Below the pieces are notes generated by a model. It saw only the letters and a program-made list of their open reading frames with translations. It was not told where the DNA came from and did not search any database. DNA of 42,152 nt from a virus, in IMG/VR virus record IMGVR_UViG_3300045141_000119, positions 1 through 42,152 of that record; one strand, written 5' to 3'. Shown in pieces: positions 15,911 to 37,167 of the stretch (position 1 is the stretch's first letter; each line of letters starts with the position of its first letter). The translations under genes were made by a program, and so were the position numbers.

Positions 15911-16315
15911 ATGCTCAGATTGCTTCTCGCCGCGCTGGCAACAGCGTGGGGCTTCAGCGCGTTTGCGCAGTCGGCGCCGCTCAAATACGACAGCGCCGCC
16001 TCCACCAATTCGACACTCGTGGTTTCCGGCTCCGTGCAGCTTCGCGTGCTCGGCCTGTTCAATACGACGGCCGCGATCTATTGGCTGAAGCTTTACGATC
16101 TCGCGGTGGCGCCGACCTGCGGCACCTCGGTCGTGAAGTGGAAGGTGCCGATCCCGTTCGGGGCCGCGAATGCCGGCGGCGGCGCCGTCATGCCGATCTC
16201 CGATGGCTTGGCGTTCGCCAATGGGCTGGGCTTCTGCCTCACCGGACTGCAGGCCGACAACGACACCACGGTGGCGGCGACCGGCTTGGCGCTCAATTTC
16301 GGCATCAAGCAGTGA
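15911..16315 (+). CDS. Exported structural-type protein 1 of the inserted block (134 aa)
   Basis: A Sec signal peptide (residues 1-19, ending AFA-Q) precedes a beta-rich domain containing IYWLKLYDLAVAPTCGT and GFCLTGLQADNDTT. This pattern resembles small virion-surface proteins found near head genes of many phages, but those usually lack a signal peptide. The mature protein has two cysteines that could pair. It opens the block of signal-peptide genes between portal and scaffold and is coupled to the next gene by a GTGA overlap. Confidence 0.75.
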   Translation: MLRLLLAALATAWGFSAFAQSAPLKYDSAASTNSTLVVSGSVQLRVLGLFNTTAAIYWLKLYDLAVAPTCGTSVVKWKVPIPFGAANAGGGAVMPISDGLAFANGLGFCLTGLQADNDTTVAATGLALNFGIKQ

Positions 16316-16761
16316 GAGGGCTCCTAACGGCGCTTCTTATCTGCCTGGCATCGTCGGCGCCGGCGCAATTGCTGACTACGGAATACGGCGCCGGGAGCTT
16401 TGCCAGCGGCGTGTTCATTGCGCTGTCCAATACCTCGATCCTGGAAATGTCGTCCAACGGCACCACGCTCGGCACCGCAAGCGTCGCCGGCGGTACGTTT
16501 TCGGGAACTCCGGCCTGGAGCTTGGTCGACGCGCTCGGGGTTTTTCAGATCAACTCGGTGACCGGCATCGTGACCGTGCTCAGTAACGTGAACCTGGTGT
16601 TTGCGACCCATCCGACCATCCCGATCACCATCTCGGTGACCGGAACGGTGCCAACGGTTCCTTCGCGGATCGTCAGCATCACCGTGTTGCCGATCGGCTG
16701 CACGGGTGCAGTCGATCTTTCCAAAGGTTGCCCAATGGCCCAGCTTGGAGGTGTGCCATGA
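16312..16761 (+). CDS. Exported cadherin-like protein (149 aa)
   Basis: The start is the GTG in GTGA overlapping the upstream stop. The signal peptide (LLTALLICLASSAPA) ends near residue 18. The mature part looks like one cadherin-type beta domain: FQINSVTGIVTVLSN, then PITISVTG and SRIVSITVLP. Such domains carry adhesive or spacer functions. Two cysteines near the C-terminus (GCTGAVDLSKGC) can pair. The cysteine inside the signal peptide is not in a lipobox. Its stop overlaps the next ATG. Confidence 0.7.
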   Translation: MRGLLTALLICLASSAPAQLLTTEYGAGSFASGVFIALSNTSILEMSSNGTTLGTASVAGGTFSGTPAWSLVDALGVFQINSVTGIVTVLSNVNLVFATHPTIPITISVTGTVPTVPSRIVSITVLPIGCTGAVDLSKGCPMAQLGGVP

Positions 16762-17567
16762 ACAAATGGCATCTACGTTTTCTAAGGCTGGCCTATTTCG
16801 GCCTTGCCGCCATCCTGCCGATCTACGCCCTGGCCGATTACAATGGCACGCAAGGCGCGGGCATAATCTTTCGCGCTTTTGATTCCACCCATGGCGGCAC
16901 TTCTGCTTGCGCTGCTGCCACCACTCAATGCGCAGCCGTCGGCTTGATCAATTCCGCCGGCGCCGAGATCGGCACCGCCGGCACCCCGGTTCGCGTCGAT
17001 CCGACCGGCACCACACCTCAACCCATCTCGGCTGCCGCGCTTCCTCTCCCTGCTGGCGCTGCCACCTCGGCCCTGCAAGGCACCAACACTGCCACCACCG
17101 CCCACACCTGCTCGACCGCGGGCTTCTCCGAGCTGGGCTGCCTCGGCCAGATCAACGACAGCATAAATCTGCCAATTCCTGCTGGCACCGCCCACATCGG
17201 CACCGTTGGCACCGCGCCGTATCCCGACACGGCCGTTCCCTACACCTCATCCACTACCGGCACCACCACGGCCATAACCGCCACCCTCGCTGGCGCAGCC
17301 TCCGTCACCACCTACATTTGCGGCTTCTCCGTTCGCGCCAATGCCACCGCCGCCCAAACCAACAACATCGTCGTTTCCGGCACCGTCTCAGGCTCGCTCA
17401 ACTTCACGCAATGGACCGCTCCTCTCGCCACCGGCCTCGGCGTTTCCGAGCAAATCTTCTCTCCCTGCATCCCGGCCAGCGCCGCCAACACCAGCATCGT
17501 CGTCACTACCGGCGCTGCCGGCGCCAGCGGCACCATCTCCGTCGCCGCCTGGGGCTACAAGCTATGA
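16758..17567 (+). CDS. Exported threonine/alanine-rich protein (269 aa)
   Basis: A signal peptide (residues 1-26, ending YALA-D) is followed by a low-complexity, threonine-, alanine- and glycine-rich beta protein. It has six cysteines in the mature part (near SACAAATTQC, HTC, LGC, YIC, SPC), an even number. The coding strand is strikingly C-rich, unlike the G-rich neighbours, which suggests separate origin. It might be a fibre or decoration protein. It is coupled by ATGA overlaps at both ends. No catalytic motif is visible. Confidence 0.7.
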   Translation: MNKWHLRFLRLAYFGLAAILPIYALADYNGTQGAGIIFRAFDSTHGGTSACAAATTQCAAVGLINSAGAEIGTAGTPVRVDPTGTTPQPISAAALPLPAGAATSALQGTNTATTAHTCSTAGFSELGCLGQINDSINLPIPAGTAHIGTVGTAPYPDTAVPYTSSTTGTTTAITATLAGAASVTTYICGFSVRANATAAQTNNIVVSGTVSGSLNFTQWTAPLATGLGVSEQIFSPCIPASAANTSIVVTTGAAGASGTISVAAWGYKL

Positions 17568-18514
17568 AGCCTCCCGTCTGGTGGACCCTTTGGTGGTTCG
17601 GCATTCTCGTCTGCCTAACCCCTGCGCTGGCCTATTGGCAGACGCGTGACACGACCTACAACGTCAGCATCAGTGCTGGCGGCGGAGGCTCCTGCGCCCA
17701 GTCCACCGCCTACTTCGCCGCCACCTCGCTCGATGCCACCCACAAGACCGCTATCGACACCCTGATCTGCGGTCGCGTTTCCAGCGGTGTCTTCGCCAAG
17801 CTCGATGTCTGGAACATGCTGGCCACCACCAACGCCGCAGACGCCTTGGTCAACATGGCGCAGCCGGGGACGTTCAATACTACGATTATCAGCACGCCAA
17901 CATTCACTTCCAATGCCGGCTATGCCGGTGTCGACGCCAGCACCTCCATCGCCCTCGATACCCACTTCAACCCATCCTCTTCCATGGGCGCTTGTGATAG
18001 GGGTGGGGGACTTCACCCCTGCTACATTCAAGACAGCGCCCATCTCTCTATCTGGAGCAACACAAATCACAATCCAGCAGCCAACGCTATCGACATCGGG
18101 ATGGACGATAGCGGTGCTGCCAACAACAGTTTCATCGCCGCGACGCTAACAAGCGGCACCTCTGCTGATTTCATTGTAAACTCAAACGGTTTTAGCGGAG
18201 GTTCTCCTATAAGTGACTCGCTCGGTCATTACGTAGCAGTTCGCACTTCCTCGACCAATTTGAACCCATACAAGAACGCCACAAATCTAGGCGCTCTTGT
18301 CCAGAACGACGCCACCGTTGCCAACGGAAACATCTACGTCCTTGCCCTTGGCATCTCCACTGGTGGCGTTATGACACTTCAATCCGGCTCCTCTCGTCAG
18401 ATTATGACCTTCTCTATCGGTGGGGCACTGTCCGGCGCGGACGTGACCGACCTCTGCCACGCAACCAATGTCTACCTTACCACCATCGCAGGACTATCAG
18501 CAGGAACATGCTGA
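17564..18514 (+). CDS. Exported lectin-like tail-appendage domain protein (316 aa)
   Basis: The signal peptide ends PALA-Y near residue 23. The mature protein resembles a recurrent phage appendage domain: FAKLDVWNMLATTNAADALV (about residues 85-104), then TPTFTSNAGYAGVDAS, SAHLSIWSN, and AIDIGMDD. In other phages this concanavalin/LamG-like domain sits at fibre tips or beside esterases and probably binds glycans. Six mature cysteines are visible, an even count. The ATG overlaps the stop upstream, and the stop overlaps the beta-helix gene. Confidence 0.7.
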   Translation: MKPPVWWTLWWFGILVCLTPALAYWQTRDTTYNVSISAGGGGSCAQSTAYFAATSLDATHKTAIDTLICGRVSSGVFAKLDVWNMLATTNAADALVNMAQPGTFNTTIISTPTFTSNAGYAGVDASTSIALDTHFNPSSSMGACDRGGGLHPCYIQDSAHLSIWSNTNHNPAANAIDIGMDDSGAANNSFIAATLTSGTSADFIVNSNGFSGGSPISDSLGHYVAVRTSSTNLNPYKNATNLGALVQNDATVANGNIYVLALGISTGGVMTLQSGSSRQIMTFSIGGALSGADVTDLCHATNVYLTTIAGLSAGTC

Positions 18515-21500
18515 TGCGGATAGCAACCCTGCTCCTTTCGCTTCTTCTAGCCGCTCCCGCCGACGCCTGGCCCCGCCATGGCGCTTCTGCTGGCGGCGGC
18601 GCCCTCGCCCCCGGCCTCGTCCTCGGCACCTATGGCGCCACTGGCGCAGCAGGCTGGACCCGCATCGGCCCGAGCAACGGAATGCAGGCCAGTGGGGCAA
18701 CCACCAACGTCATCTTCGTCTCCGACTTCCTGGGCAACGACAACCGCGACGGCTCGACCCCTACTTTCGTTGATGATGGCGTGACCGAGCAATTCAACAT
18801 CACCACCGGCAGCGCCACCGCCACCGCAGTCTACAAGGACCTTGTCAGCGGGCAGTCCTGCACAGTTGCTGTGACGATCGCCAGCAAGACTTTTATGCAA
18901 TGTGGAAGCCGAACCGGGACCCCTAGTGCGAGCGGAACCTTGACCAAGCAATCCGGGACCGGAGACGCCACGCTCACCTACAGCGCGGTCACCCTCGGCA
19001 TCCACGGCCCGGTCAAAACCCTAATCAAGGGATTCAGCGGCAGCGGCCCTGAAGCCCCCGCTAGCCTCGATAACGTCCTAGCGAACCAAGGCGACGGCAC
19101 CGGGCTTGGTACCATCGGCAACTGGCGAACGGCTGGCGGCGTCGGCTCTGCCTTCGCGTTGCGCGACGGTAAGCCCGATTGGCTCCTGCTGCGTATGGGA
19201 GACACCTGGGTTGGGCAGGCGATAGAGGCGGCCTGGACCTCTGGTGGCGGATCGGACAACTTCCAAAAGAGTGGTTTTTCTGAACAAGAGCCCATGGTCA
19301 TCTCAGCCTACGACGAGAACTTCCCCGTTGCTACCAACGGCCCGAATGTTGGCGCTCGCGCACGACCAATAATCTTAACCCCATCTGCAAACGACACTTA
19401 TGCCTTTGCCCAGCCAGCCGGGACCATACACCAGTTTTCCGGCCGACCAGGAATGAACCTCACAGCCGGTCGCGGCAACTACGTCGCTGTCATGGGGCTG
19501 TACTTCTACTCCGCGCAGCGAGACCCCAACAACACTCTTGGTGCCTATTATGTCGGCGCAGGCAACATAGACAACAACAGCAACATCGCCGTCGATCACC
19601 GCGGCGGCTTCACAGGCTCCCTGATCGAGGACACCCGCGCCAGTTGGTACACCAATGGCTTCACCTACGAAAACGCTTCCGGTTCGTCGCTCACTCCATC
19701 GAATTTTGACGTAACCGTCCGCCGCAGCCAGGTTGACCACTGCTATTCCACCGGCTCTGGACATCACAGCGGAATCATCGTTGACAGCGCTGGTTCCGTA
19801 GGTGGAGGCAGTGGCGGGGCCATGTCCACAGGGGTTATTATTGATGAAAACGTAATGGATCAATGCGGGTGGTCAAACAACATCTTTACTGGCGGGGACA
19901 GTTTCAGCCGCAATGCCTACCTCCAGTGGGACGCGGTTGCTGGTAGTCGACGTGGAAACACCAGCACCAGGAGTGCATCGGAAAGTATGCAGTTCAGGGC
20001 TGGCGGGACCATCGATAACAACTTTTTCTACAATGGCAGCTACGGCTCCGATGTCGGACACCAGGAAGGCGACCCGACACTGACCAGCAGCACGGTCTAC
20101 ACAAACAACGTGGTCATGGCTCCTGTGAACCCCATTGGTGTCGCGCCGGTCGGAGTCAACTTCTACAACTCCAGCAACGTAACCGCCTCCGGCAACATCG
20201 TCGCCAATCAAGACAGCAGCGTCGGCGCACCTGGGACGACTGTATATGTCCAGACCGATCCAAACAAAGGCAATGCCTATTACTTAAACCTAACGAATGC
20301 AGGAACCGGCGGCACGCCCGGCAACTACGCCATTGCCACTTGGAGTACTACAGGCGGAAGCTTTGGGTGTACCGGCTATCCCACGAATTTCACCGGGGGA
20401 ACAGGGACCACCGGTGGCATGGGCGTCTACAACATGGTCATCAACGGCGGCGGGACGATCACTCCCGACCCGCTCGTTGGAGGATTGAATTTTCTCGAGC
20501 CCAGCGTCGGCGGGACGTTCTCGGCCGGAGATGCTCTAACCCCGGTCGCAAACTACCCAAGTATCAACACCACCGGCACCTCGCTCACCGCTGTCGGAAC
20601 AGGCGGCACGCTGGGGGACTACGGGACAGCCTTCGGCCATTGCCCGCGTGATGTCTCAAACCCAAACGCTGGGGACACCCAGGTCGGCGTTCCCCTTGTT
20701 AATTTCAGCGGGAGTATGGCTGGCTCGGGAGCGGCAGCCACTTTCTCCACGAACACATTCACCGGCATCACGCGGGCACTTAATGGTGGAACAGGAACTT
20801 ATTGGGCCACTGGCCTGACCACCAACACCAACAACATAGGGCAAGGCGCACCATTTGGCGTCGGTGGCGTCGGTGGCGTTGGCTCTTTGAAGTTCACCGT
20901 CACCGGCGCAACCCCATCCGCCTACAACGGCACCTGGACAGCTCTTACCTCCAACCAGTTTGGGTTGATTTGGGACACCGGCCTCGCCGCCGACCCTGGC
21001 CCTGTCACCGTCCCCGGCAACGTAACCGCCTACGCCATCGTCGCAACCGGCAAGGGCTACGTCGCTGGTGATGTGGAGACGATCGCCTCGACCGACATCG
21101 GTGGCCAAACCGGCGTTCGCATCACGGTCGGCACCGTAGCGCACCTGAGCGGTTGGACCGTATCTGTCCGCACCCTCGAAACCCAAGGCGTCCAAGGACT
21201 GACGTGGACTGGCAATATCGTCTTCAACTGGGCTGGTCAAAATCCTCCCAACCTCAGTGATTGTGGTGGACCGAATAGCACTAACGCAGGCTGTGGCGGG
21301 AACATTCCTGCAGGAGGTGGGGTAGCCAACACCTTCACCGGCAACAGCAACTGTGCAGGATCGCAATTCACCGGGGTGATCACGGGGACGAATACTCTTA
21401 CGACAAGCGCCCTCGTCAATGGCCCAATTGCCATCGGCCAGAACCTCGCTGGCCCTGGTGTCATGGCCAATACCACCATCACTGGCGGCTCTGGTACGAG

Positions 21501-21762
21501 TTGGACCGTCTCGCCGAACCAAACCGCTCCCAGCGCGACAATGTACGGCTACACCTGCACCCCGACCAAGGTCTACGCCCATCCAGAGCGTACCGCTGCC
21601 ACTTACGCTGGCTCTCTCGGGATCACCCCCGCGACCCTCGACGGCTATCTCTACGGCGACGGCAGCCACCCCGGCGCGATGAACAACGCGAAGTGGAATT
21701 GGAACCCTGCCTACACCGCCAACAACGGCCTCAACCCCTACATCCGTCTCGGCTTTCAGTGA
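18514..21762 (+). CDS. Exported parallel beta-helix protein, possible depolymerase (1082 aa)
   Basis: A signal peptide (residues 1-18, ending ADA-W) leads into a glycine/asparagine-rich protein. Repeated turns such as IDNNFFYNGSYG, YTNNVVMAP and NVTASGNIVANQ, at about residues 440-570, are typical of a right-handed beta-helix like pectate lyases and phage tailspikes. The N-terminal 150 residues and the C-terminal 350 look like separate beta domains. Ten cysteines, an even number, are in the mature part. Polysaccharide binding or cleavage is likely from the fold, but no catalytic site can be assigned. AGGA eight bases upstream favours ATG 18514 over ATG 18508. It is the largest protein of the genome. 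Confidence 0.8.
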   Translation: MRIATLLLSLLLAAPADAWPRHGASAGGGALAPGLVLGTYGATGAAGWTRIGPSNGMQASGATTNVIFVSDFLGNDNRDGSTPTFVDDGVTEQFNITTGSATATAVYKDLVSGQSCTVAVTIASKTFMQCGSRTGTPSASGTLTKQSGTGDATLTYSAVTLGIHGPVKTLIKGFSGSGPEAPASLDNVLANQGDGTGLGTIGNWRTAGGVGSAFALRDGKPDWLLLRMGDTWVGQAIEAAWTSGGGSDNFQKSGFSEQEPMVISAYDENFPVATNGPNVGARARPIILTPSANDTYAFAQPAGTIHQFSGRPGMNLTAGRGNYVAVMGLYFYSAQRDPNNTLGAYYVGAGNIDNNSNIAVDHRGGFTGSLIEDTRASWYTNGFTYENASGSSLTPSNFDVTVRRSQVDHCYSTGSGHHSGIIVDSAGSVGGGSGGAMSTGVIIDENVMDQCGWSNNIFTGGDSFSRNAYLQWDAVAGSRRGNTSTRSASESMQFRAGGTIDNNFFYNGSYGSDVGHQEGDPTLTSSTVYTNNVVMAPVNPIGVAPVGVNFYNSSNVTASGNIVANQDSSVGAPGTTVYVQTDPNKGNAYYLNLTNAGTGGTPGNYAIATWSTTGGSFGCTGYPTNFTGGTGTTGGMGVYNMVINGGGTITPDPLVGGLNFLEPSVGGTFSAGDALTPVANYPSINTTGTSLTAVGTGGTLGDYGTAFGHCPRDVSNPNAGDTQVGVPLVNFSGSMAGSGAAATFSTNTFTGITRALNGGTGTYWATGLTTNTNNIGQGAPFGVGGVGGVGSLKFTVTGATPSAYNGTWTALTSNQFGLIWDTGLAADPGPVTVPGNVTAYAIVATGKGYVAGDVETIASTDIGGQTGVRITVGTVAHLSGWTVSVRTLETQGVQGLTWTGNIVFNWAGQNPPNLSDCGGPNSTNAGCGGNIPAGGGVANTFTGNSNCAGSQFTGVITGTNTLTTSALVNGPIAIGQNLAGPGVMANTTITGGSGTSWTVSPNQTAPSATMYGYTCTPTKVYAHPERTAATYAGSLGITPATLDGYLYGDGSHPGAMNNAKWNWNPAYTANNGLNPYIRLGFQ

Positions 21763-21950: not shown

Positions 21951-21954
21951 AGCA

Positions 21955-22968
21955 ATGGCACCGAGAACACAGCGGGGGACTAGTCCCCCAGCGGCGCAGG
22001 ATGTGGATGACGAAAGCCTTCTGGTCGCCGCCATGGCCAATACCGAGAGCGAAATCTTCACCGAAGCGATGGGCGACGACGAGGACGAAAACGACGGCGA
22101 TACCTCGCTCGAGCAGATGGAAGATCCGGTCGGCGACGACGAGGAGGACGCCGGCGAGGAGGAGGGTGACGAGGAAGGCCAGGAGGAAGCCGGCGACGAG
22201 GCAGAACCGCCGCGGGAGGCTGTCCGCGAGCCTCCCCCGCAGGACCGCTGGGCCCCCGGCTACCGCCTGCCGCCAGTTGATCCTTCCGCCCAGCGCATTT
22301 CCGAGCTCGAGGCCCGGCTGGCACGCATGGAAGCGCCCCGGCAAGAACAGCAGGCGCCTCCCCCACCGCAGGAACTTCCCGACCCCGTCCTCGACCCGAC
22401 CGGCTTCCGCGAAGGCATGGCGGCGCAGATGCGGGCCGAATATCAGCAGGCCACCAGAACGGCCATCCTGGAGAACAACTTCAAGGCAACCGAGGCGGCC
22501 TATTCGCGTGAGAACCGAAGGGACGAGTTCACGCTGGCAGCAAGCCAGTTGAACGAGCTCTCGTTTCGCGCCAGGACGGACCCGAATGCCGCGGCTACGG
22601 TACGCGGTATCGTGAATGCACCCGATCCCGGCTACGCGCTGATGCAATGGGCCGAGGATACCCTCGACCTCGAGAACTTCCGCCAGGAACAGGCGGAACG
22701 CAACCGCGAGCAGGCAGCACGCCTGCTCGGTGTAGACCCGGCAGACCTTGAAGGCATTGCCCCGCAACAAGCGCAGCGGCGACCATCAGAGAGCCAGCAA
22801 CGCGGTCAACAGGACCGCGCGCCCGCACAACGCGGCAGGGGAACTCCCCGGCTTCCCTCATTGAACTCAGCAGGCGGCGTCGGACGCGAGGGCGGCAATA
22901 GCCGCAACCTCGACCCGCGCGGCTTCGACGGTTCCGAGGAAAGCATCTTCCGAGACGCATTCAACTAG
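21955..22968 (+). CDS. Scaffolding protein
   Basis: The 337-aa product is very acidic over residues 30-85 (runs of D and E), then proline-rich, then coiled coil (about 110-130 and 225-260). It ends in a basic linker and the sequence FDGSEESIFRDAF. Acidic, extended, coiled-coil proteins with such a C-terminal capsid-binding tail directly before the coat gene are phage scaffolds. It should guide procapsid assembly and then leave or be degraded. A 16-bp perfect palindrome lies at codons 7-12. Confidence 0.8.
   Translation: MAPRTQRGTSPPAAQDVDDESLLVAAMANTESEIFTEAMGDDEDENDGDTSLEQMEDPVGDDEEDAGEEEGDEEGQEEAGDEAEPPREAVREPPPQDRWAPGYRLPPVDPSAQRISELEARLARMEAPRQEQQAPPPPQELPDPVLDPTGFREGMAAQMRAEYQQATRTAILENNFKATEAAYSRENRRDEFTLAASQLNELSFRARTDPNAAATVRGIVNAPDPGYALMQWAEDTLDLENFRQEQAERNREQAARLLGVDPADLEGIAPQQAQRRPSESQQRGQQDRAPAQRGRGTPRLPSLNSAGGVGREGGNSRNLDPRGFDGSEESIFRDAFN
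21974..21989. repeat. 16-bp perfect palindrome at the start of the scaffold gene
   Basis: GGGGGACTAGTCCCCC is an exact inverted repeat with no spacer, seven codons into the scaffold reading frame. It could be a protein-binding site or an RNA hairpin near the ribosome site. Nothing else in the sequence tells which. A related but weaker repeat, CCGAC-CTA-GTCGG, lies before the coat gene near 23028-23040. Confidence 0.6.
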
Positions 22969-23055
22969 CTACGCTTCGCGGCCCCCCAACAAGCCGCGCT
23001 CCGCTAAGAAGTCCGTAGCCAACCCCACCGACCTAGTCGGGGAAAGGGTCTGGCC

Positions 23056-24204
23056 ATGGCCATCACTACCGTACAAGCCCAAAATAAACTCATCGTCTTT
23101 CGCAAGGAAGTCACCAGAGAATACATCCGGCAGAACCTGTTCTCCCCCTACGTGGGAACGGAACTCACCGCAATCATCCGCGTCATCAATGACCTAAAAA
23201 AAGGCGGCGAACAGATCAATATCCCGCTGGTCGCAAGGCTCAAAGCCAACGCGATCTCGACCGGGACGCTCGTCGGCAACGAAGAGAACATCGACAATTT
23301 CGGCGATCGGATGTGGATCGACTGGGCGAGAAACGCCGTCCGCATCCCGAAGTCCGAAGAGCAGAAGTCGAGCATCGACCTGTTCGGCCAGGCGCGTCCG
23401 CTGCTCGAAGACTGGGGCAAGGAGCTCCAGCGCAACGAGATTGTCGACACGTTCAACACGATCCCGATCCAGAACACGCAGCCGGCCGCTCTCGGCTCGG
23501 CCGGCGGCCAGCGCGTCAACGGCGCGTTCTTCGACGCGGCTACCGCAGGACAACGCAACACATTCACCACCGACAACGCCGATCGCATCCTGTTCGGTGG
23601 CAGCCAAGGCAACCTGTCGCCCGGCAACTGGGCAACCTCGGCCGCCAATGTCACGTCCGGCATGACCTTCAGCGCGGCTGCCGCCAACAAGATGAAGCGC
23701 CTGGCCAAGAAGGCCAATCCGCGCATCCGGCCCTACAAGCTGAAAAACGGCCGGGAATATTTCGTGGTCTTCGTGGGGTCGAATTGCTTCCGCGACATAC
23801 AGCTCGACACCACGATCATCAACGCCAATACCCAGGCGCGGCCGCGTGAAGGCGACGGGCTCGACAAGAACCCGCTCTTCCAAGACGGCGATCTGCTCTA
23901 CAACGGCATGATCTTCCGCGAGATCCCCGAGCTGGATATCCGGCTGCCCACGACCTACACCACCGCAGGCGCCGGCGGCATCCAGATCGCGCCCGTGTTC
24001 ATGTGCGGACAATCCGCCATGGCCTGGGCGTGGGGCAGAATGCCTCGCCCGACGTTCCTCAAAGAGGACGACTACCAGTTCTTCCGCGGCGTCGGCGTGG
24101 AGATGGCCTACGGCCTCAAGACCATCGCCAAAGCGAACCCGGCCGGAAACTACAAGAGCTGGGGCATCTTCTACGGGTATTTTGCTTCGGCGAATGACAC
24201 ATAA
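23056..24204 (+). CDS. Major capsid protein (N4-gp56-like/DUF4043 type)
   Basis: The 382-aa product carries the pattern of the N4-gp56 coat family: LVGNEENIDNFGDRMWIDWA, then AVRIPKSEEQ and LLEDWGKELQRNEIVDTF at about residues 73-134. GREYFVVFVGSNCFRDI and a C-terminal FGYFAS-like end follow. The HK97-type fold is expected. It follows the scaffold as in all phages of this type. The pairing of an N4-type coat with a P22-type portal and tail shows the mosaic nature of this genome. A gap of 87 bases precedes it and may hold its own control signals. Confidence 0.88.
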   Translation: MAITTVQAQNKLIVFRKEVTREYIRQNLFSPYVGTELTAIIRVINDLKKGGEQINIPLVARLKANAISTGTLVGNEENIDNFGDRMWIDWARNAVRIPKSEEQKSSIDLFGQARPLLEDWGKELQRNEIVDTFNTIPIQNTQPAALGSAGGQRVNGAFFDAATAGQRNTFTTDNADRILFGGSQGNLSPGNWATSAANVTSGMTFSAAAANKMKRLAKKANPRIRPYKLKNGREYFVVFVGSNCFRDIQLDTTIINANTQARPREGDGLDKNPLFQDGDLLYNGMIFREIPELDIRLPTTYTTAGAGGIQIAPVFMCGQSAMAWAWGRMPRPTFLKEDDYQFFRGVGVEMAYGLKTIAKANPAGNYKSWGIFYGYFASANDT

Positions 24205-24323: not shown

Positions 24324-24902
24324 ATGAAGAATCTCATCTCGCGGGTGAGCGGCGGATTTCTTGCCGGCCTCGCCATTGCGTTGTTTCTCGTCGGCTCCGG
24401 GCTCTACGTCTCGGCGCAGAACATCATCCCCTCCAGGTCGTTCCCGACCCAGCAGCTCGCCTATACGCGGTTCACGGTCAACTTTAATAGTTGCGCCTAT
24501 GTGACGCTGACCTGCTCGTTTCGGGTCGCCAATCTCCCGTACAACACCTATGTGCTGCGGGCTAATTCCCAGGTCACGACGGCCTGGAACGCCGGCACCT
24601 CGGCGGCGATCGCGCTCGGCACGGCGTCCGGCGGCGGTCAATTGGTCGCCTCGGCCGTCACCGGCCCCGGCACCGGCGGCGGCACGGCCTCGACCGTGGT
24701 CGCGGGCGCGATCGGCACCGCCGTCACCGGCAACGGCATCGCACAGACCGGCCTCAATGGCGGCTTCGACGTATGGGCCACCATCCTGGTCGTCGGCGCG
24801 CTCCCGACCACGGGACAGACCAACTACGTCATGGAATGGGCGCAGCCGAACGACGGCCAATGCACCCAGGTCGGGCTCGGTGCCACCGCGCCAGGCTGCT
24901 GA
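24324..24902 (+). CDS. Exported protein after the coat gene, decoration-like (192 aa)
   Basis: A signal peptide (residues 1-31, ending VSAQ) precedes a beta-rich protein with AIALGTASGGGQLVAS, GGFDVWATILVVG and YVMEWAQPNDGQC. The position and pattern fit capsid decoration or head-fibre proteins found just after coat genes, but those are normally cytoplasmic. Four cysteines (SCAYVTLTC and two near the end) can pair. The 119 bases between coat and this gene contain a short inverted repeat (CCGGC-TTA-GCCGG near 24255) and no other gene. Confidence 0.75.
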   Translation: MKNLISRVSGGFLAGLAIALFLVGSGLYVSAQNIIPSRSFPTQQLAYTRFTVNFNSCAYVTLTCSFRVANLPYNTYVLRANSQVTTAWNAGTSAAIALGTASGGGQLVASAVTGPGTGGGTASTVVAGAIGTAVTGNGIAQTGLNGGFDVWATILVVGALPTTGQTNYVMEWAQPNDGQCTQVGLGATAPGC

Positions 24903-24951: not shown

Positions 24952-25338
24952 ATGAGCCTAGCCAATAACGCGCTCCTCAATTCACTGTCGCTCGCTGGTA
25001 CGGTGCTCGACGACAACCAGACCGCCGGCGGCGCCACCGGCGTGACCGTGCAAGCGGGCGCCACCTCGATCGTCGGCGAGGGCATCCGCGTGCTGCGCGG
25101 CGGCGCCGGCACCAGCGTCATTCTCAAGAGCGTGCTCTCGGGTGACGCCGGCCCCTTGGTATGGATCGTCAACGACGGGCCCAGCTCGATCAATGCCTTC
25201 CCGGCCGCGGGCGAGTTCAACAATGGCACCGTCAATCAGGTGTTGGCAGTACCGTCCGGTCAAGGCGCCATTTTCGTCAGGGTGCCGAATAATTTGGCCG
25301 GGTCCAGCAGCGGATGGCGTAGTGCTGTGATCCCGTAG
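24952..25338 (+). CDS. Head-type structural protein (128 aa)
   Basis: A compact beta-rich protein (GGATGVTVQAGATSIVGEGI, later GQGAIFVRVPNN) without signal peptide or cysteine. It resembles small virion proteins next to coat genes, perhaps a second decoration protein or a fibre base. No family can be named. AAAGGAT lies upstream of the ATG. Confidence in a real gene is high; the role is inferred from position only. Confidence 0.7.
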   Translation: MSLANNALLNSLSLAGTVLDDNQTAGGATGVTVQAGATSIVGEGIRVLRGGAGTSVILKSVLSGDAGPLVWIVNDGPSSINAFPAAGEFNNGTVNQVLAVPSGQGAIFVRVPNNLAGSSSGWRSAVIP

Positions 25339-29821: not shown

Positions 29822-31426
29822 ATGGCCGGTCCCCAAGACTATCTGACGGTGAAAGGACCGGATCCCGCCAGCTATTCGCTGCCGAAATTCGACCTCGGCT
29901 CGCAGATCGCGTCCATCCCGACTTCATATCAGGAGGGCCAGCAATACGGTGTCAAGCGCGCCCTGCAGACGGCGTTCAAGGACGGATTTCCTACCGATCA
30001 GCAGGGAAATCCAGATTACAATGCAATGGCAACCCGCTTGTTGGCGATCGGCGGCCCTGAAGCCGCGCAGCCATATTTCCAACTGGGCTTGCAGCAGGGC
30101 AATGCAGCCGGCAATCAAGCAGTTCTCGGCGGCCAGCCGGCGCCGCAAGGTGGCCAAGGCAATCCGCCGCAGACGTTCACACCGATGGCTCCGAACGCAG
30201 CGACCGGCCAGAGCGGCATCACGGGCGAGCACCCGAGCACGGGCGGCGGATCGATCTTCCCGTACAAGCCTGGCACTTCGCCGCCGCAGATCGTGGGTGG
30301 CGGACAGCCACAGGGAGGCACCGGCCTTGGCGGCCAGCCAGCGCCGTTTGCCGGCAATCGCGATCAGCAAGGTGCGCCGTCTCAGCCTCAGCTTTCGTTC
30401 AATGATCGTGTCCCGCCTAGCGGGGGAATGTCCAATCAGCCTTCAGTCGTCACGCAGGACGGCACCAGCGGCCAGCCTGCCGCGCCAACGTCATCGCGCG
30501 AGACGGCCAACAATGGCCAGCCGGATCGGCGCATAGTGGCGGCCGATCGACTCGACGCGCAAGCCGCACTAATTCAGCAGCAGGCCTTGGCCTATGGTCA
30601 ATCGCCGGCCGCAGTGAAGACGTTGCAGAATCGCGCGCAACAACTCACGGACCAGGCCAAGCAGTATCGCGAGGCGGCGCTGAAAGACACGGAGGCCACG
30701 CCTGAGCAAAAGAATCTTACTTCGGGCGCGACCCAAAAGAGCAAGGAACTCGAAGGCGACATCGCGCGATCGCAAAAGACCTACGGCGGTATGCACGCCA
30801 TCTCGAACCAATTCGAAACAGGACTTGAGCCGGCCATTCAGGTCGCGAAGGGCATCCTCAACCGGCCCGAGATGTATTCCGGTATCGGCGGCCAGTTCTC
30901 GCTCGACTTCAACAAGGTTCGCGCTGCGCTCGGTGACAGGGGAGCAGCAACCCTGCAGGAGGGCTTGCAGAAGATCAACGCCATCAGCGTGCTCGCCCAG
31001 GTCAACCAGCAAAAAGATGAAATGCAGGAAACAGGTGCGACGAGCTCGCGCATTTTCTCGCAACAGGTCGATCAGGTCGCCAAAGCCTCGGCATCGATGG
31101 AAAATACGGTGAACGGCAATCGTTTCCTGATAAATTTTCAGGACCGGATGGGACAATTCTCGAAGGCGCTCACGGCGCAGGCGCAGGCTTACATCCAGGC
31201 ACACGGCCATCTGGATGTCGGTTTCGACAAGCAAGTGTCGAACTACATCGCAAAAAATCCGATCTTCTCGCCGCAGGAGCGCGCCGATCCTCGTATCCTC
31301 GGGGCGCCCGATGCTCCACCCGGTCATCAGACAAAGGCTCAGGTGATGGGTTGGGCAAGATCCATGGGACTTTCATCTGGCGATCCGTTCCGCACCCCGG
31401 CGGGTGATGTGCGGTACATTCCATGA
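29822..31426 (+). CDS. Internal virion/ejection protein (534 aa)
   Basis: The N-terminal 110 residues (YQEGQQYGVKRALQTAFKDG and PYFQLGLQQGNAAGN) are typical of podovirus ejection proteins. A long Q/P/G-rich disordered stretch follows to about 245. A helical region then includes coiled coil from about 250 to 300 and a mixed domain to the end. No peptidoglycan hydrolase motif is visible. Likely injected with the DNA to cross the envelope; this is inference from position and composition. Confidence 0.7.
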   Translation: MAGPQDYLTVKGPDPASYSLPKFDLGSQIASIPTSYQEGQQYGVKRALQTAFKDGFPTDQQGNPDYNAMATRLLAIGGPEAAQPYFQLGLQQGNAAGNQAVLGGQPAPQGGQGNPPQTFTPMAPNAATGQSGITGEHPSTGGGSIFPYKPGTSPPQIVGGGQPQGGTGLGGQPAPFAGNRDQQGAPSQPQLSFNDRVPPSGGMSNQPSVVTQDGTSGQPAAPTSSRETANNGQPDRRIVAADRLDAQAALIQQQALAYGQSPAAVKTLQNRAQQLTDQAKQYREAALKDTEATPEQKNLTSGATQKSKELEGDIARSQKTYGGMHAISNQFETGLEPAIQVAKGILNRPEMYSGIGGQFSLDFNKVRAALGDRGAATLQEGLQKINAISVLAQVNQQKDEMQETGATSSRIFSQQVDQVAKASASMENTVNGNRFLINFQDRMGQFSKALTAQAQAYIQAHGHLDVGFDKQVSNYIAKNPIFSPQERADPRILGAPDAPPGHQTKAQVMGWARSMGLSSGDPFRTPAGDVRYIP

Positions 31427-31432
31427 TCGGCC

Positions 31433-33460
31433 ATGGCAATGAGTGACGTTTACAATATCGGCGTTATTCACCCCAGAGGATGGGTGCCGCCGCCGCCCGC
31501 ACCCGGTGCCCCTGGCGGTGGCCCCGGCGGCCCCGCCGAAGCCGATCCATATGCGGACTTTCCGACCGCGCCGAAGGGTGAAGCGAAGGCCCCGACGCAA
31601 GCCGCCGCCGGCGCCGACCCTTACGCGGATTTCCCGACTGAGGCACCGCAGGCACAGCCGCCATCCCGCGAGGTCGGGATAGGCGAAGCGCTGGGTAAGG
31701 GCTTCACAACAGGCGCGAGCTTTGGGTTTGCGCCTGCAATCGAGGGCCTGGCCGCGGCCGCGGGCCCCGACTACCAACCCAAGCTCGACCAAGACGGTAA
31801 CCCTGTCGAGATGCCCAATCCCATGGCGCCGATCGTCGGGGCTGCCAAGCTGATCAAGGAGTATTTTAGCGACCAAAAGCTAAGCGACCTGGTGACTGGC
31901 GGCCATCATGCTGTTGCCGATGCCTATACCCGTGGTCGGGAGGCGGCCTTGGCGGATCAGACGCTCGCCAAGGAGCAGCACCCGCAAGCCTACCTCGCCG
32001 GACAGCTCGCCGGCGCCGTAGCCATGCCGGTGCCTGGGGCAGGCGCCATGAAGGCCGCCACCGTTGGCGCGCGGGCGCTTGGCGGCCTCAAGGCGGGAGC
32101 CATTGGAGGCGGTCTGTACGGGGCTGGCGAGGCCACCAGTGAGGGACAGGCGCTCCCCGATGTCGCCAAGAGCGCAGGCCTGGGCGCTGCCGTCGGTGGC
32201 CCTCTAGGGGCCGGCATAGGCGCTGCGGTCGGACCTCGGGTGCGGGCCGCGCTCACGCCCGGTGAGCAGGCGGCCAGGACCGCGGAGAGCATCGGCGCCC
32301 CGATCCCGAAAGGCGTGGCCAGCGATAGCCGGGCGATCAGGTCCGCCACGTCTGCTACCGCCTCGGTCCCGATCATGGGCGCGCGGGTGCGCAACGCCCT
32401 CGACGCGACCAGGGAAGCAGCCGGCGATGTGGTGGGGCAATCCGGCGTGGATCAGGCCATCGCCGCCAACCGGAACCGCGTCAATGCGCTCTACGATGGG
32501 GTGCGCAGCCAGATCGACCAGACCGCCGTCGCGCCGATGCCGCGGACGGCGGCAGTCATTCAGCGAGTGAAGGCTAACCGGCAGGCGGCCGGATGGGCCG
32601 ACCCAGGGCAGGGCTTGGAGCAATTCGAGAACGTATCCCAGGGGGCGACCTTCAATGGCGCGCACCGGGCGCGGGTGGATGCCAGGGAGGCCGGCGACGT
32701 GGCCAATCCGCACCCTGGATACAATGCGGCGGACTTCAATCTGATCACCCGAGCAATGACTGCCGATCTGCGCGACATGGTCGGCCGGCTCGCGACCCGC
32801 AGTCCGCAGAGGGCGCAACGCGCCTTCGATCAGGCAGAGAAGCAATTCGGTCCGATCTCGGAAGCAAACAAGTTTCTGGCACGGATCGCCAAGACGCGCG
32901 GTCCTGGGGCCGGCCTTGACGAGCTCGGCTTCAATCCCGCGACCGGGGAGTTCAGTCTCGAGAAATTCGTGACCGCCTGGAACAAACTCAATCCGCAGGC
33001 TCGTCCGTTCGTGCCGGAACCGGCGCACGCCGCGAATATCGAATCCATCTTTCAGATGGGTTCTCATATCAAGAGTTCGATGCGGGAACGGAATGTTTCG
33101 CACACCTCGACGCCGCTGATCATGATGGATCTTGCGCGCGATGCCATCCTCGGTGGCGTAGCGATCGGGACGGGTGCGGTAGGGGCAGGATCAGCACTTG
33201 GGGGCGCCGTGATGGCCGCCCCCGCCATCATGTTCGCGCATTGGCTTTCGAGCCCGGCCATCGCCTCATCGATGAGCGCATGGTCAAGAGTCTACCGAGC
33301 AATGACTTTGGGAACGCCGACGCCGGCCAGGATCGCGGCGTTCAATGTCGCAACCCGGAACCTCGCCAATAATCTCGGACTTCCGGTCGAGAACGTCATG
33401 CGGGCCGCGCAACGGCGGCTTGCCGCTCCCGCGGGCGATGAAAATAAGAATCAGCAGTAG
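31433..33460 (+). CDS. Large ejection/DNA-transfer protein (675 aa)
   Basis: The N-terminus is proline/glycine-rich and repeats DPYADFPT at about residues 38-45 and 64-71. Residues 180-275 are glycine/alanine-rich with several hydrophobic stretches (AGQLAGAVAMPVPGAGAM and further) able to enter a membrane; others lie near 570-610. The rest is helical. The layout matches the large injected proteins of P22-like phages (gp16/gp20 class), which form a conduit for DNA. No enzymatic motif recognised. It starts seven bases after the previous stop. Confidence 0.7.
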   Translation: MAMSDVYNIGVIHPRGWVPPPPAPGAPGGGPGGPAEADPYADFPTAPKGEAKAPTQAAAGADPYADFPTEAPQAQPPSREVGIGEALGKGFTTGASFGFAPAIEGLAAAAGPDYQPKLDQDGNPVEMPNPMAPIVGAAKLIKEYFSDQKLSDLVTGGHHAVADAYTRGREAALADQTLAKEQHPQAYLAGQLAGAVAMPVPGAGAMKAATVGARALGGLKAGAIGGGLYGAGEATSEGQALPDVAKSAGLGAAVGGPLGAGIGAAVGPRVRAALTPGEQAARTAESIGAPIPKGVASDSRAIRSATSATASVPIMGARVRNALDATREAAGDVVGQSGVDQAIAANRNRVNALYDGVRSQIDQTAVAPMPRTAAVIQRVKANRQAAGWADPGQGLEQFENVSQGATFNGAHRARVDAREAGDVANPHPGYNAADFNLITRAMTADLRDMVGRLATRSPQRAQRAFDQAEKQFGPISEANKFLARIAKTRGPGAGLDELGFNPATGEFSLEKFVTAWNKLNPQARPFVPEPAHAANIESIFQMGSHIKSSMRERNVSHTSTPLIMMDLARDAILGGVAIGTGAVGAGSALGGAVMAAPAIMFAHWLSSPAIASSMSAWSRVYRAMTLGTPTPARIAAFNVATRNLANNLGLPVENVMRAAQRRLAAPAGDENKNQQ

Positions 33461-33518
33461 TCCCGACCACGGAAACAAGATCATTCCTTCAGTGATGGCA
33501 TAGACGGACACCAGACAG

Positions 33519-34652
33519 ATGAAAAAGAACATCATGGGCGCATTTTGCGCTCTCGCGCTGCTATTCGGCTTTGCCGGACCTGCCTCGGCGCAGGGCTCGC
33601 TGCCGATCGCGCTGCAGCAAGTCTCCGACCAGAACGGCCATCCGATCGTAGGCGCCTTGCTGTACTTCTATCAGGTCGGCACGGTCGCGACCCGGCAGGA
33701 CAGCTTCCAGGATACGGCGCTGGTCAATCCAAATCAATGGCCGCTCCCGACCGACGCCTATGGCCGGGTGCCGATGTTCTACGTGGCCTCGGGCTCGATC
33801 CATGTGCGGCTGACCGATCCGGGCGGCCTCGTTATCTTCGACTATCCGAACATGCTGGTCATCGGGCCATCCGGCGGTGGCGGCGGGGCCGGTACGGTCG
33901 ATCCGACCACAATTGCGTCGACTGGTGACATGAAGTTCCGGCCATCCGCCGAAGTGCTGATTGGCTGGGTGCGGATGAACGGCAACACCATCGGCAATGC
34001 CGTCAGCGGCGCGACCGAGCGCGCCAACGCCGATACGCAGGCTTTGTTCATCTACCTGTGGGGCTTGGGATTGACGCCGTCGGGTGGCCGCGGCGCCAAC
34101 GGTCTGGCGGATTTCAACGCCAACAAGACCATGGCTACCATCGACATGCGCGGCATGACCCCTGTCGGTCTCGACACGATGGGAGCGGCGGCGGCCGGCC
34201 GCTTGAACGGAGCACTGTTTGCCACGGGAAATTCATCGACACCGTTGTCCACCGGCGGCGAGGCCACTCATTCAATCAACCAAGCCCAATTGCCGGTAAC
34301 GGGTCAGACGTGGACCCAAACCGGCGGCTCGGCTACATGGACCCAAACTGGAACAGGCACGGCGACGTTCAGCGGAAATCCTGGCACGGCAACAAGTACC
34401 CAAGGTTTTGTTTTGTGGTCGGCCAATACGGGAGCGACGGGAGCACAGTTTTTGGCGACTGGCGGCCCGAGTGCTGGCGCCACTACAGTTTCTTCGAGTT
34501 TTACCCCCGCCGGTTCGGTCACCGGAGTTACCGGGATTGCTGGTTCAGTAAGCGGAGTTACAGTTTCTGGAACGATAAGCGGTTTCGGCGCGGGGTTCGC
34601 GATGAACGTCATGAACCCGTTTATCCTAGGGACATTTTATCTTAAATTGTAG
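33519..34652 (+). CDS. Exported tail-collar-type fibre protein (377 aa)
   Basis: A signal peptide (residues 1-24, ending ASA-Q) precedes a first beta domain (SDQNGHPIVGALLYFYQVGT). A tail-collar-like segment, MNGNTIGNAVSGATERANAD with LFIYLWGLG, follows near residues 155-190. The C-terminus is serine/threonine/glycine-rich and contains the repeat TWTQTGG/TWTQTGT. Fibres of this type normally have no signal peptide. The mature part has no cysteine. A 58-base gap before it shows nothing else. Confidence 0.78.
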   Translation: MKKNIMGAFCALALLFGFAGPASAQGSLPIALQQVSDQNGHPIVGALLYFYQVGTVATRQDSFQDTALVNPNQWPLPTDAYGRVPMFYVASGSIHVRLTDPGGLVIFDYPNMLVIGPSGGGGGAGTVDPTTIASTGDMKFRPSAEVLIGWVRMNGNTIGNAVSGATERANADTQALFIYLWGLGLTPSGGRGANGLADFNANKTMATIDMRGMTPVGLDTMGAAAAGRLNGALFATGNSSTPLSTGGEATHSINQAQLPVTGQTWTQTGGSATWTQTGTGTATFSGNPGTATSTQGFVLWSANTGATGAQFLATGGPSAGATTVSSSFTPAGSVTGVTGIAGSVSGVTVSGTISGFGAGFAMNVMNPFILGTFYLKL

Positions 34653-34659
34653 GTCAGCC

Positions 34660-35082
34660 ATGTATTCCGATCGCACGCTGCTGCCGCCGGTATCGAACCG
34701 GGAGGATTTGTACCTCCCGCTCTCGGTGTTCGACGACGATACCGGCCAGCCCATCGACATGGTGGCGCTGGGCTGGACGTTCCAATTCGAGATCCGGCGC
34801 GGCGGCCCGAAGAACACCGGCTCGGGATATATCCCATGGTACGACTGGGGCACGCCCGACGATCTCGGTCCGTTGATCTCGGCCACGCTCAATGCGCCGG
34901 TGGGAGCGGGCACGATCATCATCGATGACGTGGGCTTCATGCACGTCATGATCCCGGAGACACTGATGCGGACGCTTTCCTCGAGCACCTATCAGGCCGC
35001 CATGACGGCAACCGATGGGTTCAGCACACGGCAGTTGTTCCTCGCAAGGCTACCGGTGCTATTCGGCGGAGTTACCACATGA
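34660..35082 (+). CDS. Tail-region hypothetical protein (140 aa)
   Basis: Beta-rich with NREDLYLPLSVFDDDTGQPI and GWTFQFEIRRGG. This pattern recurs in small proteins beside fibre genes of many phages. No signal peptide and no cysteine. It is coupled to the collagen-like fibre gene by ATGA. Probably a fibre adaptor or minor tail protein; no direct evidence. Confidence 0.65.
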   Translation: MYSDRTLLPPVSNREDLYLPLSVFDDDTGQPIDMVALGWTFQFEIRRGGPKNTGSGYIPWYDWGTPDDLGPLISATLNAPVGAGTIIIDDVGFMHVMIPETLMRTLSSSTYQAAMTATDGFSTRQLFLARLPVLFGGVTT

Positions 35083-35675
35083 GCAATATGCCGGCGAACG
35101 TCCGCATTTCCGCGCAGTTCCCGTTCCCGGCGAGCGTGTCCGGCACGACGCCGATTGCCATCACCAAGGCCAACGGGATCTGGTCGGTGGCGCTGCCGAT
35201 CGGTGCGCTCGCAACGCAATTGCCGTCCGGCGGCAGCCTGACGACCGATTACGTGCTGGTCTGGGATTCGTTGACCAACACGTATTTCAAGATGCCGATC
35301 TCGAATATCCCGACCGGGCCGCCAGGGCCAGCCGGGCCAGCGGGTCCAGTGGGTCCAACGGGTCCAGCGGGCGGAATAAGGGTCCAGCGGTTGGTGACTG
35401 CTTCACCGATCGTGGTCGGCGGCGGGGATCAGATATTCAACTGCAACATTGGTGTTGCCGCGGCTTGCGCATTGCCGGCATCCGCTACTCGCACTGGAAA
35501 TCCGCTGACCTTCAAGGATGTTGGGGGACAATTCGGCGCCCACAATCTCACGATCACGCCAAATGGCGTCGAAACGATCGATGGAGCCGCCACTTTCGTT
35601 GCGACCGCGAACCGGCAATCCATCACGCTCAATCCGTTCAACGACGGGACCAACTCGGGGTGGTTCATCACTTAG
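35079..35675 (+). CDS. Collagen-like tail fibre protein (198 aa)
   Basis: An N-terminal beta segment is followed by about six collagen-type triplets (GPPGPAGPAGPVGPTGPAGG, about residues 82-101). A C-terminal trimeric beta domain (FKDVGGQFGAHNLTITPNGV, later NPFNDGTNSGWFIT) ends the protein. Collagen triplets make a triple-helical stalk in phage fibres. No signal peptide. The triplets are encoded by imperfect DNA repeats of 9 bases near 35319-35372 that could expand or contract. Confidence 0.8.
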   Translation: MSNMPANVRISAQFPFPASVSGTTPIAITKANGIWSVALPIGALATQLPSGGSLTTDYVLVWDSLTNTYFKMPISNIPTGPPGPAGPAGPVGPTGPAGGIRVQRLVTASPIVVGGGDQIFNCNIGVAAACALPASATRTGNPLTFKDVGGQFGAHNLTITPNGVETIDGAATFVATANRQSITLNPFNDGTNSGWFIT

Positions 35676-35688
35676 AGAGACACATCAT

Positions 35689-36870
35689 ATGATCAAAAAG
35701 CTTTTGGCGTTTGTGACAGGGGCCGCTTTTGCGGCCCTTTTTGTTACCCATGCGATCGCGCAAAGCTTCCCCGGCACGTTGCCGATCAACACCCAAACCT
35801 CAAACTACTCCATCGCTACGACTGACTGTGGCAAGACCATCCAGCTCGGCACCGGTTCGACGGGGTTCTTCACCCTGACGTTCCCGTCTACCGCAGGATT
35901 TCCGGCGGCCTGCTCCGTCCAGGTGGTCGACGGCGATACGGCCCGTGGCAAGGCTGTTGCCGGTCTCACCGGCATCACCAAGCTCTATCCTGCCCAGACA
36001 TTCGGCGCCAATATTGTCAACTCGGCGTGGTCTCTTTTCCAGAAGCCACCGCGCTGGCAGACCACACTCACAACCTTATTCGTCGACACCGGACGTGGCT
36101 TGGACACCAACGATTGCATGGCCGCCGGCACAAGCGCCTGCGCTACTGCCACGCAGGCAATGACCGACATTGCAAAGAACATCGACAATCAGGGCCAAGT
36201 CATCATCCAGTGGGGCTGTGCCAGTCCGCCCTGCACCTACGCCAATCTGCCTTTTCTCTCTCAAGCCTATGTTGGTAGTGGATTCATAACACTGCAAGGC
36301 GACACGACCACTCCCGACAATGTCGTGATGAGTTGCACTTCAGGCAATTGCAACAATGCACCCGGAGCAATTTTCAACATTCTACAGAATGGTGCGCATA
36401 CGAGTGCGGGAAATTGGATCATCCAGGGATTCAAGATCACCTCCAGCGTAGCCGGAATTAACGGCATCTTCGCGCAGGGGGCGGCGGCTTGGGTTGCTTT
36501 CAATTCGATCGACTTCGGCGCCATGACCACAGCCTCCCACATCGGCTGCATATCTCCAGCCAGCCTGCAGAGCAACGGCAACTTCACCATAACCGGAGGG
36601 GCTACGCACTTCACCGACGTCGAGGACGGCTGCGTTGTGCATATCGTTGCTGGCGTGGGGACCATATCCGGCACACCGGCGTTCACCTCGTTCATCTACG
36701 CCCACGGAGCCGGTGCGATCGTCGGGACGGTCAACACGAATTTCTCAGGCGCCGCGACCGGCAACAGATGCACGGGAGATTTGCTGGCGCTGATCGATGC
36801 GGCCGGCACGGGTGCGAGCCTTCCGGGCAATGGAACCTGCGGCGTGTCGAGCGGCGCTGTCCTGAATTAG
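35689..36870 (+). CDS. Exported cysteine-rich beta protein (393 aa)
   Basis: A signal peptide (residues 1-24, ending AIA-Q) precedes a small fibre-type domain (SNYSIATTDCGKTIQLGTGS). A larger beta-helix-like part follows (SGFITLQGDTTTPDNVVMSC, NWIIQGFKITSSVAG, AAAWVAFNSIDFGAM). The mature protein has twelve cysteines, an even number. It may bind or process a surface polymer. The signal-peptide codons contain a terminator-like hairpin at 35718-35742. The start is ATG 35689, thirteen bases after the previous stop. Confidence 0.75.
   Translation: MIKKLLAFVTGAAFAALFVTHAIAQSFPGTLPINTQTSNYSIATTDCGKTIQLGTGSTGFFTLTFPSTAGFPAACSVQVVDGDTARGKAVAGLTGITKLYPAQTFGANIVNSAWSLFQKPPRWQTTLTTLFVDTGRGLDTNDCMAAGTSACATATQAMTDIAKNIDNQGQVIIQWGCASPPCTYANLPFLSQAYVGSGFITLQGDTTTPDNVVMSCTSGNCNNAPGAIFNILQNGAHTSAGNWIIQGFKITSSVAGINGIFAQGAAAWVAFNSIDFGAMTTASHIGCISPASLQSNGNFTITGGATHFTDVEDGCVVHIVAGVGTISGTPAFTSFIYAHGAGAIVGTVNTNFSGAATGNRCTGDLLALIDAAGTGASLPGNGTCGVSSGAVLN
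35718..35742 (+). terminator. Terminator-like hairpin inside the signal-peptide codons
   Basis: GGGCCGC (35720-35726) and GCGGCCC (35731-35737) pair around a TTTT loop, extended by G-T and A-T outer pairs, and five T residues follow. It has every mark of an intrinsic terminator but lies 30 bases inside the 393-aa gene. Translating ribosomes would prevent it from folding, so it could stop transcription when translation is slow. Confidence 0.6.
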
Positions 36871-36882
36871 GGGAGAGATGAG

Positions 36883-37167
36883 ATGTACCGACTTGGATAT
36901 TTGTTTCTTGGCTTCATCCTGTCTTTTCCATTTGCTGCTTTTGCGACACTGCAGGGGATTGATCTGTCGGTAGCCAACAGTGCAGGTCTTTCCACAACCC
37001 CAACTTTGTTTTCAAGTCTACCCAGTTGCGCGATGGGAACGGAAGGCCAGCGTTTTGCCGTGACCGACAGCACGACGGCCGTTTGGGGAGGCACGATTAC
37101 CGGCAGTGGTGTGAACCACGTGCTGGCCTATTGCAACGGAACCAACTGGACCGTGGCTGCGAAATGA
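36883..37167 (+). CDS. Exported small fibre-type protein (94 aa)
   Basis: A signal peptide (residues 1-21, ending AFA) precedes a short domain with CAMGTEGQRFAVTDSTTAVW and CNGTNWTVA, a pattern seen at the C-termini of phage fibre proteins. Two cysteines can pair. The gene is more AT-rich than its neighbours. Its stop overlaps the ATG of the next, membrane-protein gene. Confidence 0.7.
   Translation: MYRLGYLFLGFILSFPFAAFATLQGIDLSVANSAGLSTTPTLFSSLPSCAMGTEGQRFAVTDSTTAVWGGTITGSGVNHVLAYCNGTNWTVAAK

Follow-up and report, generated by a model that had tools for sequence, protein, structure and literature searches.

The 42,152-base virus record IMGVR_UViG_3300045141_000119, the whole of which is referred to here as the window, carries nine genes in the late virion operon of a tailed phage whose products begin with a signal peptide (SP). 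Two of these products are predicted to be exterior parts of the virion, a head cement (decoration) protein encoded at 24324 and a tail fiber encoded at 33519 (genes are named by their first coordinate, Table 1). We regard it as fairly probable that the virion is built in two compartments, its exterior parts being exported and docked at lysis. The protein families themselves are known; as far as we can tell, the export of the cement and the fiber is new.

Related loci were collected by a capsid-protein search of viral contigs, which gave 80 loci, and by a capsid-alignment scan of genome contigs, which added prophage-type loci. A rule-based SP scorer (our own, not SignalP) was applied to 1,420 genes of these relatives. 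As an earlier sequence-only reading of the window had stated, an n-region, an h-region and an AxA motif are seen at all nine starts in the translations and the genes do lie in the late virion operon. The scorer gave values of 2.7–4.1 for eight of them, with the GTG-initiated gene at 16312 left uncalled but its SP clear by eye. Within the SP-bearing clade none of the capsid (0/78), scaffold (0/66), portal (0/46) or ejection proteins (0/69) was called, which places a bound on the false-positive rate of the scorer; its false calls were two borderline adaptors and two Wzy-like membrane proteins. Over 83 related loci an SP was called on 74 of 76 cements, the remaining two being start miscalls, compared with none of these capsid, scaffold and portal proteins, and the export pattern thus goes beyond chance. 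That the nine genes form one exported set is not so: the constant element is the SP of the cement, and the other SP genes vary.

The predicted head cement protein

The gene at 24324 adjoins the 3' side of the major capsid gene, which is the position of the cement family, and in nearly all of the 80 loci the next gene after the capsid encodes a protein of 170–220 amino acids (aa) with an SP. AlphaFold (42 sequences) predicted a beta-sandwich with a predicted local distance difference test (pLDDT) score of 80, for which the best Foldseek match against PDB was the Pam1 cement 7eel_H (E value 1.6e-4), followed by 8h89_J (GP4 cement, also hit by the Pam5 cement) and 7dou_4 (KHP40 cement), all three with a probability of 1.00 and template modeling (TM) scores to the target of 0.55–0.64. 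Using hhalign, the profile of the SP-bearing cements was aligned to the SP-less cements that occupy this position in related phages (1.8e-18) and to the single SP-less protein of locus L068 (1.9e-17), and the SP-less profile in turn reaches the KHP30 cement gp15 (E value 0.002). The direct hhalign comparison of the SP-bearing profile with the Pam5 cement alone was not significant; the link runs through the SP-less homologs and the structure. In a joint alignment the start methionine of the SP-less cements lies at the cleavage region of the SP-bearing ones, with the N-terminal arm and a conserved arginine retained; in the Pam1 cement an elongated N-terminal loop touches the capsid E-loop (PMC9698820). 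By sequence and modeled fold, the product of 24324 is identified as the putative head cement protein.

The same fold is shared by the trimeric immunoglobulin-like (Ig-like) cements of Pam1 (7eel_H), Ralstonia phage GP4 (gp1, 8h89_J) and Helicobacter phage KHP30 (gp15, 7dn2). The Pam1 and KHP30 genes also lie directly behind the capsid gene, as in the window, and the SP-less homologs provide the link by sequence. The cements of Pam1, Pam5 and KHP30 have no SP, however, whereas the clade of the window adds an SP and two to six paired cysteines. GP4 gp1 has been traced in virions from Ala2 (PMC9698820). Cytoplasmic, SP-less synthesis is usual for Ig-like podovirus cements, although not strictly defining, and here an SP was found on 45/45 non-redundant cements of the clade compared with 0/32 outgroup cements.

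In the capsid tree all SP-bearing rows fall into one clade of 48 rows with support 100/99 (45 with SP, two unknown and one SP-less, L068), and the outgroups are all without a cement SP. L068 is nested beside L061, L063 and L064 and has therefore probably lost its SP. True absence was seen in L068, L084 and L085, and L069 and L070 are start miscalls. Among the prophage-type loci, L090 (in the isolate Bradyrhizobium sp. YR681) and L089 (in a metagenome-assembled bacterium) encode cements with an SP, and the other loci with a recognizable cement lack it. Other prophages from the same bacterial family have ten more SP-less homologs 3' of their capsid genes; the SP thus tracks the phage clade and not the host family, and a host effect as its cause was rejected.

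The family phrog_20969, labeled "Rz-like spanin" in PHROGs, aligns to the cement domain (E value 1.5e-10 with the protein of L076). This label was rejected for the cement, as no SP-bearing cement has a cysteine at +1 (no lipobox) and the mature domain is all-beta with no coiled coil or C-terminal membrane segment; since the family matches the cement domain, the label is probably a misannotation. In L042–L047 and L025/L026, extra SP genes (236 aa and 129 aa, respectively) occur between the cement gene and the gene corresponding to 24952.

A cytoplasmic form of the cement was also sought. No internal ATG with a ribosome site was present in any of the 45 clade cements, and a second form produced from an internal start was rejected. 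In the window the SP-less profile finds only the gene at 24324. The SP-less product of the next gene, 24952, was rejected as a general replacement cement because it is missing in many SP-bearing phages.

The tail fiber and the pairing of cysteines

The protein encoded at 33519 is homologous to the Pam5 tail fiber (39% identity) and matches the tail protein family phrog_8763. Foldseek related its N-terminal domain to the tail-complex proteins of Pan3 and Pam1 and to the head-binding domain of the P22 tailspike. In P22, Sf6, Pam1 and Pan3 this anchor fold forms the protein's own N-terminus, whereas in 33519 it is predicted to lie behind a cleavable SP. Homologs of the fiber are general in these phages, with the SP-bearing ones confined to the clade; the fibers of L063, L067, L068 and every outgroup have none. 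When aligned, the SP-less fibers begin (MAG...) exactly at the cut site of the SP-bearing fibers (A^AG/QG...). The SP-less start is thus the same as the mature start, and is followed by the head-binding domain, so the export signal stands directly before the virion-anchoring domain. Further downstream, 35079–35675 encodes a spike-like protein that has no SP and contains a GPPGPAGPAGPVGPTGPAG tract resembling collagen. The resemblance to fiber and decoration proteins noted in the sequence-only reading was borne out for 33519 and 24324; its lectin and beta-helix resemblances were not, the window copies having no such match.

A recount after SP removal gave the mature cysteine numbers previously reported for the nine proteins (2, 2, 6, 6, 10, 4, 0, 12 and 2, in genome order), and those quoted for two neighbors were also correct (portal, three; 28434 protein, one). 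The total numbers are odd for 16312 (three), 17564 (seven) and 33519 (one) because each has one cysteine inside the SP. Mature SP-bearing cements have 0, 2, 4 or 6 cysteines in 4, 5, 25 and 11 cases, respectively, an even number in 45/45, compared with 0, 1, 2 or 4 in 14, 13, 4 and 1 of the SP-less homologs, where 13/32 are odd. Six SP-bearing cements have cysteine in the SP, and in five of these an odd total becomes even on cleavage. With proteins having mature cysteines grouped into families at 35% identity, those with an SP divide into 31 even and 3 odd and those without into 60 and 53 (Fisher p = 3.6e-5, ignoring phylogeny); at 50% identity the figures are 48 and 4 versus 74 and 80 (p = 3e-9, computed likewise). 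There are 45 distinct SP proteins with cysteine inside the SP, of which 37 change from odd to even on its removal, three are even both ways and five become odd.

The cysteine columns of the cements occur in perfectly co-occurring pairs, 57/64 with 180/192. The same eight cements, spread over three or more branches of the capsid tree, have the pair 88/94, and the same five, over two branches, have 82/118. Unlike the p-values above, this joint gain and loss of pairs does not depend on a correction for phylogeny. The earlier argument that even counts are unlikely by chance and suggest disulfide folding is supported by both the family parity and the paired columns. The clade-wide SPs, their predicted cleavage, the paired cysteines, the predicted homology to cements and tailspike anchors and the lack of an SP-less form are together well supported by sequence.

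Proposed assembly in two compartments and its alternatives

The textbook view is that tailed-phage virions assemble in the cytoplasm, and disulfides are normally denied to phage capsids. In the assembly proposed here the core (portal, scaffold, capsid, adaptor, head-completion and ejection proteins) would be made and filled in the cytoplasm, and the outermost, last-added parts, the cement and the fiber, would be exported by Sec with cleavage of the SP, and the same would hold by extension for the late operon's remaining SP proteins. These parts would form disulfides in the periplasm, where DsbA-type oxidation could stabilize them, and the inner membrane would shield immature heads from cement and spike. 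Once holin and endolysin breach this membrane, the released heads would meet the periplasmic pool, cement trimers would coat the capsid and the fiber would use its head-binding domain to dock on the tail hub. A possible benefit would be a disulfide-hardened exterior, or a cement binding that is delayed until heads mature. Inference lends good support to export and oxidation; actual cleavage, a place in the virion, docking upon lysis and any benefit are likewise inferred. We place at about an even chance the fuller proposal that the cement and receptor-binding parts were transferred to Sec throughout a clade, to be disulfide-folded in the periplasm and fitted to finished particles at lysis; our literature search turned up no such assembly in a tailed double-stranded DNA phage.

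In known phages cement and P22-type spikes join late, and finished heads accept the P22 tailspike and T4 Soc and Hoc in vitro, so a periplasmic relocation of such parts would be workable. Three roles had been proposed in the sequence-only reading for the exported proteins; joining virions during or after lysis is favored over a cell-surface coat or release because the cement and the fiber retain their virion-docking parts.

A number of points weigh against assembly in two compartments. Export, cleavage and virion content are predictions from sequence, and the SP calls depend on our own rule-based scorer. Seven of the nine SP proteins of the window have no assigned virion role, and an exported-appendage system as suggested earlier would so far comprise the two identified exterior proteins. 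The fiber model has a pLDDT of 60.7 overall and is reliable only in the N-terminal domain (75–90). L063 and L067 combine an SP-bearing cement with an SP-less fiber, so the two parts are not obligately coupled, and the fiber of L089 has three mature cysteines. Docking after lysis must also outrun dilution.

The best surviving alternative, which we consider unlikely, is that the exported cement and fiber have been repurposed and are no longer virion parts, remaining in the periplasm or at the cell surface where they would block superinfecting relatives, as decoys that bind incoming tails or by masking the receptor, or would coat the lysogen. It is not obvious what use the envelope would have for a protein that binds capsids. 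An envelope-located fiber could mask its own receptor, and exported phage exclusion proteins exist, such as T4 Spackle gp61.3, which loses its signal peptide on secretion (PMC7650644). Spackle, like the signal-arrest-release (SAR) endolysins and spanins, uses the host Sec but is a lysis or exclusion factor and not a capsid or fiber protein. Some relatives do have envelope-modifying genes (Wzy_C, GDSL hydrolase) between portal and scaffold; the cement gene nevertheless still lies directly behind the capsid gene with its N-terminal arm intact, the window holds no replacement cement, much of the clade lacks the candidate at 24952, and the fiber keeps a head-binding-like domain. As the capsid-binding and head-binding parts are retained, repurposing is less likely than docking on the virion.

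It is improbable that the N-terminal hydrophobic stretch is a membrane anchor or virion element holding the proteins at the inner membrane. The AlphaFold model of the cement does have an N-terminal helix, but AxA-type cleavage sites are general, the cysteine number becomes even only after SP removal (in the 37 cases above), and the h-region is constant in type while variable in sequence. Slightly more improbable still is that the SP genes are lysogenic-conversion genes (morons) whose expression from the prophage has no link with the virion, as might be suggested by the variable portal–scaffold slot with its envelope-related genes in some relatives; the SP genes all point the same way within the late operon and are separated by short gaps, the number of promoter-like matches there (2) does not exceed chance (4.1 expected), and the cement, unlike a moron, is universal in the clade. 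A start-codon artifact (N-termini untranslated) or coincidental parity, to which the ambiguous gene-call starts of L069 and some fibers might point, is already contradicted by the conservation data, with ATG starts in 45/45 cements, a ribosome site in 44/45, 23–65% identity to the window copy and parity at p = 3.6e-5 under the strictest clustering.

A literature search, with subscription papers outside its reach, returned no tailed phage with an exported cement, fiber or further structural protein; it did return exported endolysins, spanins and Spackle. The filamentous phage proteins pIII and pVIII are virion proteins with cleaved signal peptides, but these are membrane-embedded and extruded without lysis in a single-stranded DNA virus that has no tailed-phage head. 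In the window, by contrast, clade-wide export signals and paired cysteines mark a predicted capsid protein and a tail-anchored fiber whose homologs of solved structure are virion proteins without an SP. Should the two be virion parts, some of the particle would take shape beyond the membrane around the remainder. This would allow one to test at what point cement and tailspikes truly join, account for exported "hypothetical" genes in late operons, and open a natural way toward capsid display with disulfide hardening or periplasmic folding. As the isolate Bradyrhizobium sp. YR681 carries L090, the question is testable now.

Genome context and the other exported genes

The late region of the window is P22-like, with TerL (phrog_38), portal, scaffold, capsid, the head-completion protein Hc3 (phrog_578), ejection-type proteins, the fiber and a short spike. 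The window is best explained as the genome, or most of one, of a P22-like podovirus in a Bradyrhizobium-associated clade of uncultured soil viruses infecting bacteria. Its closest cultured relatives are Pam5, Pan3 and Pam1, with a capsid identity of only 31–35%.

Table 1. Late-region genes of the window discussed in the text (Cys, cysteines)
Feature	Coordinates	Strand	Remarks
Portal protein	13788..15899	+	No SP; PF16510 P22_portal 8e-90; phrog_156; predicted cytoplasmic core
Exported slot protein, 134 aa	15911..16315	+	SP by sequence and scorer; SP orthologs in relatives; 2 mature Cys
Exported slot protein, 149 aa	16312..16761	+	GTG start; SP by sequence; SP orthologs; 2 mature Cys
Exported slot protein, 269 aa	16758..17567	+	SP by sequence and scorer; 6 mature Cys
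Exported slot protein, 316 aa	17564..18514	+	SP; matches phrog_26223 (unknown function); 6 mature Cys
Exported large slot protein, 1084 aa	18508..21762	+	SP; start 18508 or 18514; 10 mature Cys
Scaffold	21955..22968	+	No SP, no Cys; between portal and capsid as in Pam5/Pam1; 0/66 SP in clade; predicted cytoplasmic core
Major capsid protein	23056..24204	+	No SP; phrog_334 6.4e-62; capsid tree; predicted cytoplasmic core
Predicted exported head cement protein	24324..24902	+	SP residues 1–31; mature beta-sandwich; Cys pairs 57/64, 180/192
128-aa protein after cement gene	24952..25338	+	No SP; present only in part of SP clade
Predicted exported tail fiber	33519..34652	+	SP residues 1–24, then P22-tailspike-type head-binding domain; 0 mature Cys
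Exported protein after fiber block, 393 aa	35689..36870	+	SP; no family match; 12 mature Cys
Small exported protein, 94 aa	36883..37167	+	SP by sequence and scorer; 2 mature Cys

The slot between the portal and scaffold genes holds SP genes in 79/148 cases in the clade compared with 1/15 in outgroups. Among relatives, the slot proteins comprise GDSL hydrolases (L019, L090) and a pectate-lyase/tailspike-like protein (L038), among others. The window's own slot copies matched no family of known function, and Pfam, PHROGs and NCBIfam searches left most of the nine SP proteins without a family. In L066 (7719–8705) and L059 (7767–8672) the slot encodes Wzy_C O-antigen ligase-like membrane proteins (PF04932; E value 2.3e-9, above the cut-off, and 0.001, below it, respectively), which possibly alter the host surface.

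Pam5 has the same gene order as the window from TerL to the tail spike, but it has no portal–scaffold insert, the scaffold lying directly behind the portal, and its cement and fiber have no SP. Behind its spike gene, gp19 (17837–18304, two cysteines) and gp20 (18313–18642) begin with signal peptides, and the trend toward exported genes may reach beyond the clade.

A tenth SP gene is located outside the late region at 5516–6166. It encodes a 216-aa protein with two mature cysteines and a VPLPA/PEP-CTERM-like C-terminal tail (TIGR03370, E value 0.028, below cut-off). Similar genes at 757 and 1413 of L050 matched VPLPA-CTERM (7.8e-5) and FxDxF PEP-CTERM (4.7e-8), both below cut-off. Could proteins of this type be phage-borne exosortase-type surface proteins?

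The minus-strand genes within 37712–41822 include, by eye, an integrase-like gene (38330–39274) and an ERF-type recombinase gene (40368–41822), which suggests a temperate phage. Another of these genes (37712–38185) resembles GcrA by eye, an annotation that Pam5 gp57 also has, and nearly all homologous prophages are in Alphaproteobacteria; the cyanobacterial host stated for Pam1 and Pam5 may deserve a second look.

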